Source: Zingiber officinale (taxonomy: Eukaryota > Streptophyta > Magnoliopsida > Zingiberales > Zingiberaceae). From it: 64,000 bases of DNA. Shown piece by piece: positions 51,999 through 58,555 of the stretch. How positions within the stretch are numbered: position 1 is the first letter of the stretch; each line of letters begins with the position of its first letter. The notes under the pieces were generated by a model. The model worked only from the letters and a program-made list of their open reading frames with translations, was not told the origin of the DNA and searched no databases. A program made the translations under genes and the position numbers. The DNA is taken from contig NW_024589855.1 in NCBI RefSeq assembly GCF_018446385.1, positions 1 through 64,000 on the forward strand. Direction: 5' to 3'.

Positions 51999-52013
51999 CA
52001 TATATATATATAT

Positions 52014-52879
52014 TTGTTATGCTACGGACTCTATCCTACGGATTACTACGGACTTTGCCATGTCATTTTAATTTTAATTTTTTAAATGCAATATTTTCTC
52101 TTTCTTAATTGTTTTCTTCTTCTTCTCGCTGTAACGAAACGCTCACCGCGCTGACTGGACGCGATCGTGTCGGATTTCGGACTGGATGCTGCCGACTGGA
52201 CGCTGCCGACTAGACGCGATCGTGCCGACTGGACGCTGCCGACTGGACGAGATCGCGGCCGGATTCCGGCGCGATCGTGGCCGGATTCCGGACGCGATCA
52301 CGTCCAGTCGTGAGCGTCCAGTACGTCGCGATAGCGGTCGGATTCCGGACGCTATCCCTGATGGGTTCACCTTCTGGTCTATAGTATGGGTGTCTCCAGG
52401 CGGCCGGAGGCCGCCGGCGGTGGGCAGATGGCCGGTGGTAGGGCGTGTGGCGGGCGCGCGAGGAGGCGCGGTGAGCACAGTGAGCAGCGAGAACCAATTG
52501 TTTTGGACGCGACCGGGCGGTGTAGACCATCGCCCCATGGGGTTCGATATGGAACGCTTCGTTGCGATGGGCGGCCTGGGCGGTGGGCATGGCCGGCATC
52601 TGGGCATCGCATACCGCGCGCATGGGCCGGATTGGGCGGAACTGGCGCTGCCCGGCCGGCGGTGGGCGGGTGGGCGGGTGGGCGATGGGCGGGTGGCCGG
52701 CGGCGAGACTGTCACGATGGCCGCCTGGCACGATGGTCGTCTGGCTTGGCACACGAACGGTGTTCGTGGTTTCGGCAACGAGAGAAAAAAAAAGGAAAAG
52801 TTGCATTTAAAAAATTAAAATTAAAATGACATGGCAAAGTCCGTAGCAATCCGTAGGATAGAGTCCGTAACATAACAAA
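52014..52879. mobile_element. Mutator-like long-TIR element with GC-rich cargo
   Basis: Terminal inverted repeats of about 78 bp (52014-52091 and 52802-52879) differ at only two positions by eye and start TTGTTATG[C/T]TACGGACT. Between them lies about 640 bp of very GC-rich DNA, sharply different from the AT-rich TIRs and flanks. Long, nearly identical TIRs around unrelated cargo are the mark of Pack-MULE-type elements. No transposase is present. The target duplication could not be fixed because both flanks are TA repeats. Confidence 0.75.
52186..52818 (+). other. GC-rich captured segment with thioesterase-like stretch
   Basis: An open frame of 210 codons spans the cargo, but frames on the other strand are similarly long, so openness alone means little at this GC content. 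The first part (52143-52330) is built from repeats of gactggacgctgcc and gattccgg. From about 52540 the frame reads MERFVAMGGLG, then HGRHLGIAYRAHGPDWAELAL, which resembles the start of bacterial PaaI-type hotdog thioesterases. After this the similarity fades into Gly/Arg/Trp-rich repeats. There is no evidence that it is expressed or functional. Family assignment is tentative, from pattern recognition only. Confidence 0.35.
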
Positions 52880-52950
52880 ATTCTATATATATATATATAT
52901 ATATAACTTATCTAAAGTAACTTCATGTAGTTGAAGTTACTAATGAAATA

Positions 52951-53945
52951 TATATTTTTGAAAATTTTTAATTCCAATTTGACCTAATTTGGTATTAAAA
53001 ATTTGAATCACTTAAAATATTATTTAAAAAATATGTTTTGTGACATATTTACGATAAGGGCAATGATACGAACGCATAGAAACTTGTTTCATCAAATTCC
53101 GATGTCTCTAGGTCAAGATATAAGCTTTCGGTCTTTGATTTAATTTTTTTTAAATTATTTTAAGTTTTGGGACGAATCTTGGATTCGTCCCAAAATTTGG
53201 GACGAATCCAGGAATTCGTCCCAAAGTTTGGGACGAATATCTGGATTCGTCCCAAAAATTTAAATATCTTTTAAAAAAAAAACCAAATGGGACGCCTTAT
53301 ATACGGACCTAGAGACATCGGAATTTGATGAAATAAATTTCTATGCATTCGTATCATTGTCCTGATCGTAAATATATCCATAAAAATATTTTTTACCAAA
53401 TATTTTTATTTTTGGAATTTTTTAATTCCAATTTGACCTAATTTGGTATTAAAAATTTGAATCACTTAAAATATTATTTAAAAAATATGTTTGGTGATAT
53501 ATTTATGATCAGGGCAACGATACGAACGCATAGAAACTTGTTTCATCAAATTCTGATGTCTATAGGTCAAGATATAAGCTTTCAGACACTAATTTACAAC
53601 CGTTCACTACACAACACCTTTTTAGCTAATAACAACCTATATATGTATTAAAAAATATCTACCTAGAGACATCAGAATTTGATGAAATAAATTTCTATGC
53701 GTTCGTATCATTGTCATGAGCGTAAATATATCCATAAAAATATTTTTTACCAAATATTTTTATTTTTGGAATTTTTTAATTCCAATTTAACCTAATTTGG
53801 TATTAAAAATTTGAATCACTTAAAATATTATTTAAAAAATATGTTTGGTGACATATTTACGATCAGGGCAATGATACGAACGCATAGAAACTTGTTTCAT
53901 CAAATTCCGATGTCTCTAGGTCAAGATATAAGATTTCGATCTTTG
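52951..53945. repeat. Alternating forward/reverse repeat array
   Basis: A unit of about 100-190 bp (containing gatacgaacgcatagaaact and tcaaattccgatgtctctag) appears forward at 52951-53140, reversed at 53306-53400, forward at 53402-53585, reversed at 53661-53757 and forward at 53758-53945. Adjacent forward and reverse copies can pair over more than 80 bp, giving two large hairpins. Copies are about 90-95% alike by eye. Confidence 0.85.
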
Positions 53946-53964
53946 ATTTAATTTATTTTAAATT

Positions 53965-54060
53965 AATTTAAGTTTTCGGACGAATCCCTAAATTCGTCCC
54001 AAAATTTGGGACGAATCCAGAAATTCGTCCCAATTTTAGGGACGAAATTGGGAACAAAAA
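53965..54060. repeat. Left subterminal repeats of the CACTA element
   Basis: Four or more gggacgaat/attcgtccc words in both orientations, the same words that fill the right end. A related cluster lies at 53165-53270 inside the repeat array. Confidence 0.8.
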
Positions 54061-54109
54061 ATATTTGTTCCTAAAAACCCTAGATCTAATTCCCAACCCG
54101 ATTCTTTTT

Positions 54110-54490
54110 CCCTTCTCTCTTTTCTTTCCTCTCTCTCCCCCGTTCCCCCTTCTTCCCATCTGCGATTTCCAGCTTTCGGCCACATCTCCGACCGATGACG
54201 GCGTGATCTACGACGATCGGCGGTGGAAGGTTTTCGTTTGGTAAGCAAAACGCTCTCGGATCTGCATGGCCGGCGGCGGCAGCCGCTGCCTGGCCGGCGG
54301 CGGCACCTGCTGCCTGGGCTCCGGCAGGCCCTGCATGGCCTCCGGCAGCCTCTGCCTTGCCTCCGGCAGCCTCTGCCTGGCCTCCGGCAGTCCACTGCCT
54401 GGCCTCCGGCAGTCCGCTGCCTGGCCGGCGTGTGGCTGCCCGCTGCCAGGCGATGGCTGGACGGCGTATGGCTACCGCTGTGCACCATTT
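54110..54490 (+). promoter_or_regulatory. GC-rich leader/promoter block of the CACTA element
   Basis: A CpG-rich island in AT-rich DNA. 54260-54440 is a minisatellite of cctccggcagcctctgcctgg-type units (about seven degenerate copies). A GC-rich, CpG-dense region upstream of the transposase is known from En/Spm elements, where it is the methylation-controlled promoter and first exon; the same role is inferred here. Frames on both strands are repeat by-products. Confidence 0.5.
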
Positions 54491-54575
54491 TGGCAGTTGG
54501 CTGGACTGTTTATGGCTGCCGGAATTTGACCATTTTATCAGTTGTTTAAGTTAATATTCAAATATTACTGTCTGA

Positions 54576-54785
54576 ATTGATAATGTTCTTTTGTGCAGGT
54601 CTCATTTTGGCGTGATCTCAGTGTAGTTGAAGACATATTTGTTGACTTCTTTTCGGTATTCTTAAGTTCTTTATTATGCATTTACTTTATATATAAAGTT
54701 AGCTTTAAATAATTTTATTATAGTTGATTAATTGCGTTCCGTCTTTTTGATTAGCTGTTGTTTTTTGTTTTGTCCTCAATGATAA
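54576..54785 (+). repeat. Leader segment duplicated downstream at 60698-60971
   Basis: Shares tttgtgcaggtct, gatctcagtgtagttgaaga, cttttcggtatt and atatataaagtta in order with 60698-60971. A splice acceptor-like ttttgtgcag ends at 54598, so this is probably a 5' UTR exon and intron of the transposase transcript. Confidence 0.85.
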
Positions 54786-54841
54786 GATTTATCTATAGTA
54801 ACTTTTAATAATGTTTAACTAAACAGTTGAATTCAGGTAAA

Positions 54842-57800
54842 ATGCAGAATGAGCGAAGTTGGATGTATAACAAAAATTTGCCTAATCGTCAGGGGTTAAC
54901 TCTTGAGTTTATCACTGGACTGAGGCAATTTTTAAATTTTACATCTACTCAAGTTATGTATATGGATGGCAAGAAGATAAGGTGCGCGTGTAGAAAATGT
55001 CACAATGGGAAATTTTTAGCCACCGATAAAGTTGAAGAACATCTTTGTAGATTTGGTTTTACTCCGAATTATTATAATTGGACAAGTCATGGCGAACCGT
55101 TCATATCTGATGAGGATTATGGACGGAATTTTCAAGCCTCTGCTAGTGGGGATCAGAGTTATTATGAACAATTCAATCCATATCAGAGGATGGTAATTGA
55201 TGCAAGTTGTCAGAATTATATTCCCGAGACGCTTGGTGCAAGTTCTAGTTTTCCTCCAACAAGTGAACAAATGTTTGCCACTAATACATTGCCGTTGGAG
55301 GAGCCTGATGTACCAGGTCTGGATGAAATATATTACAAATTTCAAGAAGTATTGAGTGCTGCAAATGAACCATTATATTCCGGTTGTGACAGTCAGACTA
55401 AATTATCTCTCACATCCAGATTATTAAATATAAAGGCAGATCATAATATGTCGCAAGATTGTTTTAATGATGTTGTTCAAGCGTTTAACGATACATTGCC
55501 ACGTGATCACAGTTTGCCTCTTGATTTTTACAGTATGAAAAAACTGGTGAAAGATTTAGGTCTTCCAGTTGAAAGAATTGATGTTTGCAGAGATGGTTGT
55601 ATGTTATATTGGGGAGATGATGCAGAAGTAGAGGTTTGTAAATTCTGTAATCAAGATAGGTATAAGACAACCAGGAGTCAACAACGACGTAAAGCACACA
55701 GCCAGTTGTTTTATTTACCTTTAACTCCTAGATTACAAAGATTGTATGCATCAAAGGCAACTGCGGAACACATGACTTGGCATGCAACTCATCAAACAGA
55801 AGAGGGTTTAATGTGTCATCCATCAGATGCAGATGCTTGGAAAAATTTTGATAGAACATATCCAGATTTTGCAAAGGAGACTAGAAATATTAGATTATGT
55901 CTATGTGCTGATGGATTTGCTCCGTTTGGTAAATCAGGAAGAAATTATTCTTGTTGGCCAGTTATTTTAACGCCGTATAATCTTCCGCCTGGGATGTGCA
56001 TGAAAATACCTTATATGTTTTTAACATTGGTTGTACCAGGTCCGCAAAATTCAAAGAAGTTAATAGATATTTATATGCAACCTCTGATAGCAGAACTTAA
56101 ACAACTATGGGATGAAGGTGTTCCTACATACGAAGTTCATTCTAACCAGATGTTTATACTGAAGGCTGCTCTTCTTTGGACCATAAATGACTTTCCAGCT
56201 TATGGTATGCTATCAGGTTGGAGTACTGCTGGGATCTTGGGATGCCCAATATGTATGGAGAGATCAAAGTCATTCAGATTGAAACACGGAAAGAAACCAA
56301 GTTATTTTGATTGTCACAGGCAATTCTTACCCACAAATCATAAGTTCAGAAAGAATAAAGATGAATTCACTAAAAATAAGATCGAAAGAACACTTCCGCC
56401 ATTGAGATTGGCAGGTCAAGATATTTGGTACAGAGTGCATCACTTTCCCTCTGTTATTGAACAACCATATGGTACAACATATGAATACGGGAGTACACAT
56501 AAATGGACTAAACGAAGTATATTTTGGGATTTACCGTATTGGTTTAGTCATTTGATACATCATAATCTCGATGTAATGCATATTGAGAAGAATGTTTTTG
56601 ATAATCTGATAAATACTGTGATGGATATCACCGGAAAAACAAAAGACAATCTCAATGCAAGAAAAGATATGCGACTCATATGTAAAAGACCCACTCTTGA
56701 TGTCGATGAAAATAGTAGAGGACCAAAGCCAAAGGCAATTTATACATTAAATAAGGATCAAAGACGTGTCCTATGTGAATGGTTGAAATCTTTGAAATTT
56801 CCAGATGGGTATGTCTCTAATCTTGGAAGATGTGTTGATATGAAAGAATGGAAGTTAATTGGTATGAAAAGTCATGATTGTCATATCATAATGCAAAGAC
56901 GGATTCCTATTGCTTTTAAGGAACTCTTACCACAATTTGTATGGGGAGCGATTACGGAGTTAAGTATTTTCCTACATGATATTTGCTCAACAGTTTTGAA
57001 ACGTTCACACATGGAGAAGTTAGAGAGAGATATTCCAATCATTTTGTGCAATTTGGAAAGAATATTTCCACCCTCTTTTTTTGACTCCATGGAGCATCTT
57101 TTGGTTCACTTGCCATATGAGGCCAAAGTTGGAGGACCCGTTCATTTTCGGTGGATGTATCCATTTGAAAGGTAGAGTGTCTTATTTGTATAATTCGAAT
57201 GTTTGAATGAAAAAAAATATTTCTACTCCTGGATTATTTATATATATATATATATATTTAATATAATTTTATATATCTTCAACAGATTCTTATATCATTT
57301 GAAGAAAAAGGTGAAAAATAAAGCACGAGTTGAAGCCTCTATTGTTAATGCATACATTGTGGAGGAAGTCACCACTTTTGCATCATATTATTTTGAACCT
57401 CATGTTCAATGCAAAAGGCGAAGAGCGGGCAGAAATGATGAGGGTCCTATTGATCCAAATGTTACCTCATTTTCAATTTTTAACTACCTTGGTCGACCAA
57501 GTGGACTATGTAAACAAAGATACTTAACTGGTAAAGAATGGCGAGCAGCCCAAACATATATTTTACTAAATTGTCCAGAGTATCATCATATTACGAGTAA
57601 GTATATATTTTTATTTTTATTTCTTTATTTTTTCAATTATTTGTGTAACAATATGTTTTTTTGAGTAGGATATTTACCAACTTATATTCTGAATTATCGG
57701 CACAAGAGTTCGATCGATTTTGTGAAGAAGAATTTGCTGCATGGTTCAAATCATATGTAAGTAAAAAATCTATATTTGTGTGATACATATGCATACTTTT

Positions 57801-58555
57801 AACAATTTGTGTTTTGACCTTAGGTTCAAGCTAATCAATCTCACCTTGAACAAGAATGGCTAATCCATCTGTCATGGGGTCCAAATTCATGCGTACGCAC
57901 TTGGCCAGCATATTTCATAAATGGATATAATTTTCATACTCAAGACTATGGAATGGGCAAGAATACCATGAATAGTGGGGTGTGCGTATCGTCATCCAAT
58001 GAAGGAGGTCCAAGTAATGATTTTTATGGTTTGTTGGATGAAATTATAGAAGTAGAATACCCAGGACCACAAATGCAAGTTATATTATTTATGTGTCGCT
58101 GGTTTGACCCTATTAGAGGGATGAAAGTGCATCCACATTATAATTTAGTTGAAATAAATCATAAGAGATTTTATAAGAGATATGAACCATTTGTGTTGGC
58201 ACAACAAGCAATTCAAGTATTCTATTCTTCATATCCGAGTTTGAAACGCGATAAGATTGATTGGTGGGCTGTTTGTAAAACTAAAGCACGAAAAAAAATT
58301 GAGGCACGTTGGGAAAACATTGCATATCAACAAGAGGAAGTTTCAAGCACCTTTCAGACTGAGGAATATATTATTCCAACTTTACGAGATCCCAACGGTG
58401 TAGTAATCAACGTAGATAGAAGTGAAATTGATGATGATGATGATGATGATGATGAGGAGGAGGAGGAGGAGGAGGAGGAGGAAGAGGAAGAGGAAGAGGA
58501 GGAAGAGGAAGAGGAGGATGAGGATGATAATGACAATGATGACTTTGATTTTTGA
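54842..58555 (+). CDS. TNP2-type CACTA transposase
   Basis: Join of 54842-57171, 57286-57579, 57669-57756 and 57824-58555; 1147 aa with all introns GT-AG and the phase kept. It cuts and joins CACTA elements at their ends. Domains: transposase-associated N-terminus (MQNERSWMYNKN..., Cys/His cluster CACRKCHNGKFLA at about 45-60); Cys-rich CKFCNQDRYK at about 268; TNP2 core (Transposase_21) about 300-600, ending in the conserved HHNLDVMHIEKNVFDNL; DUF4218-like about 690-800 with VGGPVHFRWMYPFER spanning intron 1; NCPE across intron 2; DUF4216-like about 970-1005 (GLLDEIIEVEYPG, FMCRWFDP). The C-terminus is an Asp then Glu run of about 35 residues encoded by GAT/GAG microsatellite. ATG 54842 is chosen because the family begins close to SWMY; the open frame extends five codons upstream without an ATG. 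I see no interruption, so this gene may still make protein. Confidence 0.88.

Follow-up and report, generated by a model that had tools for sequence, protein, structure and literature searches.

We identified a short stretch of bacterial DNA inside one copy of a transposable element in the ginger assembly. Judged by its sequence, the segment at 52519–52653 of the window (the whole 64,000-nt stretch analysed, which is the first 64 kb of the 157,716-bp contig C74) is Sphingomonas DNA, which on the forward strand holds the leader of a PaaI-type thioesterase gene together with its opening codons. Concerning its origin, our judgement leans slightly towards a chimera over a real insertion into the plant genome.

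Identity and extent of the bacterial piece

The original prediction had recognised the N-terminus of a proteobacterial PaaI-type hotdog thioesterase in this segment, and the searches bore this out. The 50-residue translation starting at 52537 was compared with bacterial and archaeal genomes and matched at least nine loci far beyond chance, all of those listed belonging to Sphingomonas. At the DNA level, seven of the nine Sphingomonas loci matched the window from 52517/52520 to 52652/52653 with 87–92% identity, including the leader before the start codon, and the remaining two matched in part with 77–78% identity. A match to the piece was present in 65 of 295 Sphingomonas genomes. The best of these genomes, G250, showed 97% identity over 135 bp at locus L056, with four differences, two in the leader and two in a single codon that reads Val in the window and Ile in G250, and the final 92 bp were identical. 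Plasmid records contained one match, to a Sphingomonas parapaucimobilis plasmid (92% identity in protein and 85% in DNA). In addition, NZ_CP155751.1 lists the corresponding gene as a PaaI family thioesterase, and the full-length G250 product matches both PF03061 (4HBT) and the TIGR00369 hotdog thioesterase model.

The piece contains 39 open codons (MGFDMERF...ELALP; 52537–52653, forward strand). The peptide quoted in the original prediction is present, with its ATG at 52537 and "MERF" at 52549. These codons end before the 4HBT domain; in the complete bacterial protein, the Pfam match to this domain begins at residue 51. As would be expected of a fragment lacking the domain, Pfam and NCBIfam scans of the peptides from the element's reading frames (four peptides in one scan, three in another) gave no match, 4HBT included; a PDB sequence search with the 40-residue piece gave no match either. 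As the fragment stops short of the domain, no working gene would have moved, and the earlier idea of a transferred gene found no support, as only 39 codons are present and no other copy was found in the genome.

The bacterial piece has undergone almost no decay. It shows no indels relative to its nearest relatives, and when it is aligned with 15 bacterial rows (two more, out of 17 in all, were excluded because of gaps) it carries one state that is absent from all of them, at a third codon position (52563). In the tree built with these 15 bacterial rows, the end branch of the window was 0.0056, compared with a median of 0.028. The tree paired the window with G250 with a support of 91/84, and no fork reached the strict mark.

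The element carrying the piece and its siblings

The piece lies within a copy of a Mutator-like element (MULE) family that sits in a (TA)n repeat and spans ~52011–52883 (no strand assigned), as judged from its inverted arms and from reading its ends against sibling copies; these bounds replace the span of 52143–52818 proposed originally. The terminal inverted repeats are located at 52011–52106 (forward strand) and 52786–52883 (reverse strand), and both belong to an arm, I1, that is also found in the siblings. The inverted arms (52000–52106 and 52786–52892) measure 107 nt and are 91% complementary when the simple-repeat ends are counted in. A length of ~96–107 nt places the terminal inverted repeats at the low end of the range for MULEs, in which they are typically 100–500 bp (PMC3310237). 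MULEs characteristically produce target-site duplications of 9–11 bp, but the TA repeat at the insertion site masks any such duplication of the window copy. In the one sibling copy examined for this feature, L022, which lies outside a TA repeat, a duplication of 9–12 bp with one mismatch was found; its flanks are TATTTATTACCC and TATTCATTACCC, and its element ends are GAGTTTTG and GATTTG. Taken together, the arms and the L022 duplication fit a Mutator-like element, in agreement with the original prediction. Of the element ends listed, in the window (52000–52020) and at the sibling loci, most fall within TA or GA dinucleotide repeats, which hints that the element prefers such targets.

A search of the ginger genome (3.09 Gb, 211 contigs) with the element returned 235 matching stretches, and many of those listed were parts of copies with both ends. 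Outside the bacterial piece, the window element differs by ~2–4% from its best-matching siblings. The sibling alignment defined a common left interior at 52107–52508, GC-rich from ~52126, and a common GC-rich right interior at 52654–52785 (neither with an assigned strand); many GC-rich short repeats are found in the interior. In 200-base steps, the GC content of the enclosed segment was ~60–72%, compared with ~22–34% in the surroundings, so the contrast described earlier holds. The accompanying statement that the segment matches nothing around it is true for the 135 bp only, and the GC-rich cargo as a whole is not foreign, as the remainder of the GC-rich interior is common to the siblings. A GC-rich interior is to be expected, since MULEs of rice reportedly take up GC-rich sequence (PMC4858842). 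The window contains a second GC-rich stretch at ~54.1–54.6 kb.

When 26 loci (25 siblings plus the window) were compared without gaps, private stretches of at least 30 bp appeared at three of them, namely 132 bp in the window, 212 bp in L021 and 195 bp in L023. A gapped comparison displayed such stretches in L021 and L023 only, its alignments having bridged the window's piece. The L023 stretch (L023:868–1072) is ginger DNA, with ~205 bp at 94% identity to loci on C18 and C17; it occurs at six places in ginger, itself being one, with relatives of 73–74% identity at three. The L021 stretch lies between tandem copies and has 22 ginger matches, itself being one, several of which are paired ~4.7–5 kb apart, and these pairs may correspond to the long terminal repeats of a retrotransposon, which they resemble. 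Both stretches were considered as possible further bacterial patches, and both match ginger DNA; the family therefore acquires host sequence, and the bacterial piece is the exception among the copies examined. By manual count, 9 of the 13 differences between L023 and its C18 donor are G/C in the element and A/T in the donor. Element copies in tandem or with common ends were observed at L018 (C10:11.067–11.070 Mb) and L021 (C16:24.987–24.989 Mb). This arrangement is similar to the layout proposed for Pack-TYPE capture, in which elements insert in tandem and chromosomal DNA is re-mobilised (PMC8903248). This route alone would not bring in bacterial DNA.

The same-genome search suggested in the original prediction recovered the sibling elements, whereas the bacterial piece had a single match in the 3.09 Gb, namely itself, and no donor locus was found. 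When the 20 kb surrounding the gene in G250 was searched against the whole assembly, with simple repeats and very common words ignored, nothing beyond the piece itself was detected; patches are thereby bounded at roughly 600 genome-wide if they come uniformly from a Sphingomonas genome of 4.2 Mb. Moreover, a comparison of 537 kb of Sphingomonas sequence with 244 kb of ginger sequence, both sets containing some overlapping loci, yielded the piece only. The 27 sibling loci (two pairs of which overlap) showed no match to the nine Sphingomonas loci at E 1e-4, and amplification of the piece along with the family was rejected on this basis.

Contig C74 appears to be unplaced, outside the 22 chromosomes. 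In a search for the other allele of the locus, the best other match of the left flank of the element was on C7 near 122.263 Mb (pieces of 95% and 89% identity), where no element copy appeared among the matches listed. The right flank, from ~52953 onwards, consists of a CACTA repeat with many copies, which is uninformative about the other allele. This CACTA-type transposon (52953–58555) adjoins the element, its repeats having many genome copies from ~52953 onwards, and its name is based on the domains found in two frames, one of 782 aa that carries Transposase_21, DUF4218 and Transpos_assoc (54827–57175) and one that carries DUF4216 (57953–58555). Further along the contig, C74:107501–110000 (L042) is a run of 2500 N.

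Junctions and origin of the join

Microhomology between sibling and donor sequence was found at both junctions, GGTG (4 bp) on the left and CCC (3 bp) on the right. At random breakpoints, matches of at least 3 bp are expected by chance in ~8% of cases (0.08) and those of at least 4 bp in ~3% (0.03). The siblings have ordinary family sequence of ~70% GC at the place of the piece; by manual count, ~160 bp of family interior is absent from the site, which holds ~135 bp of Sphingomonas DNA instead. Because the window copy is also ~26 bp shorter just left of the join (manual count), the left edge of the piece is uncertain by ~10 bp.

Between the anchors GGCGGTG and CCC, the sibling interior was 128 bp long in 7 of the 10 anchored rows (one of the seven being a duplicate, and two further sibling rows having no anchor), 120 bp in two and 146 bp in one; a looser anchor comparison gave one row only, of 149 bp. 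The window copy also measures 128 bp between the same anchors (52523–52650), and such equal length would suggest a fixed-length overwrite. The bacterial block agreed with six sibling rows at 31–34 of 128 positions, compared with shuffle means of 37.6–38.0. As this identity is no better than that of shuffles, and as ~26 bp is also missing left of the anchor, the equality is probably a coincidence.

We consider it slightly more likely than not that the join arose in the material sequenced or assembled and is not part of the inherited ginger chromosomes. Bacteria occur in rhizome tissue and would have supplied Sphingomonas DNA to the sample; Sphingomonas sequence would then have entered the sequencing data and ended up inside the GC-rich element, on a short contig off the 22 chromosomes. 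The assembly is taken to be that of ginger "Zhangliang" (PMC8342452), as distinct from the separate ginger assembly of PMC8342499. Rhizome DNA was its starting material, sequenced as ONT reads and PCR-free Illumina reads (HiSeq X Ten), and the assembly went through many rounds of polishing or gap closing (seven of Pilon, two of LR_Gapcloser and five of NextPolish; PMC8342452), which is consistent with a chimera. The same holds for the near absence of decay in a piece whose host element is itself ~2–4% away from its best-matching siblings, for the single match in the genome, for the short and apparently unplaced contig and for the position of the piece within a tract of ~70% GC. Furthermore, the ~135-bp piece is just below the length of a short read in this assembly, which we take to be 150 bp. 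However, we know of no library or software step in this pipeline that would, in our judgement, place 135 bp of foreign sequence, cleanly bounded on both sides, into a contig, and since the block resembles the family interior only at chance level, stray reads should not have mapped there. Neither the 20-kb search of the whole assembly nor the comparison of 537 kb with 244 kb disclosed more Sphingomonas DNA, which also weighs against a chimera, and the 4 and 3 bp of end microhomology fit repair in a cell. Literature searches on contamination and polishing gave nothing helpful among the matches listed.

A real and very recent insertion is a serious alternative, which we hold as slightly less probable than a chimera. 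In a ginger cell, a break in the element copy would have been repaired by microhomology-mediated end joining with a fragment from an associated Sphingomonas as filler, and clonal propagation would have kept the insert, the element itself having had no part in selecting its cargo. The two clean junctions, both within the element, are consistent with such an event, as are the two microhomologies, each uncommon by chance, the ~160 bp of family sequence gone at the site and the absence of indels relative to the nearest relatives. Polymerase-theta break repair in Arabidopsis uses short microhomology (~3 bp on average) and fillers and captures T-DNA (PMC10923293), and ginger "Zhangliang" is propagated asexually (PMC8342452). 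On the other hand, the evidence for an insertion comes entirely from assembled sequence, in one copy on a short contig, and a chimera would equally show the lack of decay. To our knowledge, there is no confirmed natural plant filler from a bacterium such as Sphingomonas; among the literature matches listed, no natural filler of this kind was found in a plant. Capture by a Pack-MULE of a bacterial gene resident in the ginger genome after an older horizontal transfer is very improbable. The ~205 bp of ginger DNA in L023 shows a sibling with host sequence, but the piece and its surrounding 20 kb have no other match in the genome, and the piece has hardly decayed. These results contradict such a capture, unless a donor copy is absent from the assembly or was passed over in the search. 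Pack-MULE capture of the bacterial piece, as envisaged in the original prediction, found no support, with none of the 27 sibling loci matching it and junctions that look like end joining or a chimera. Least probable of all, to the point of being refuted, is a GC-rich repeat or native plant gene that looks bacterial by chance; the many short repeats of the interior would speak for it, but the 97% DNA identity over 135 bp, non-coding leader included, and the short branch among Sphingomonas sequences speak against it.

Implications and comparison with known systems

It is a real possibility, though we rate it at somewhat less than even, that a ginger chromosome gained a 135-bp fragment from an associated Sphingomonas during break repair in a transposon, and the novelty of the finding depends on the insertion being genuine. 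If real, it would provide a new natural example of a plant nuclear genome containing DNA of a non-Agrobacterium plant-associated bacterium, and this within an element capable of mobility. Plant-associated bacteria of ordinary kinds, with no DNA-injection system known, could then leave filler in plant nuclear genomes, a mobile element could afterwards spread this filler DNA, and the frequency of such uptake would become directly testable. If the join is a chimera, it would serve as a warning that short internal bacterial patches in published plant contigs may escape whole-contig screens.

Contamination in plant assemblies usually takes the form of whole contigs or contig ends. The window resembles bacterial contamination or chimeras of plant assemblies in carrying almost undecayed DNA of a plant-associated genus, but, unlike the usual contamination, its patch is internal, measures 135 bp and is sharply bounded on both sides. 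The likeness to filler and T-DNA capture at plant double-strand breaks lies in the foreign fragment, the microhomology at both ends and the local loss of sequence (PMC10923293). Unlike in T-DNA capture, the donor is Sphingomonas and the insert is known here from assembled sequence. We know of no DNA-injection system in Sphingomonas. Among the literature matches listed, no title or opening of an abstract dealt with a bacterial fragment in a MULE; papers naming Sphingomonas and ginger rhizome were listed as well. The family itself is similar to Pack-MULE and Pack-TYPE elements in that it has long terminal inverted repeats, a GC-rich interior and numerous copies, with a host-derived fragment in one of them (L023); unlike the cargo of those elements, the insert in the window is bacterial, occurs in a single copy of the family and stands in place of part of the interior.
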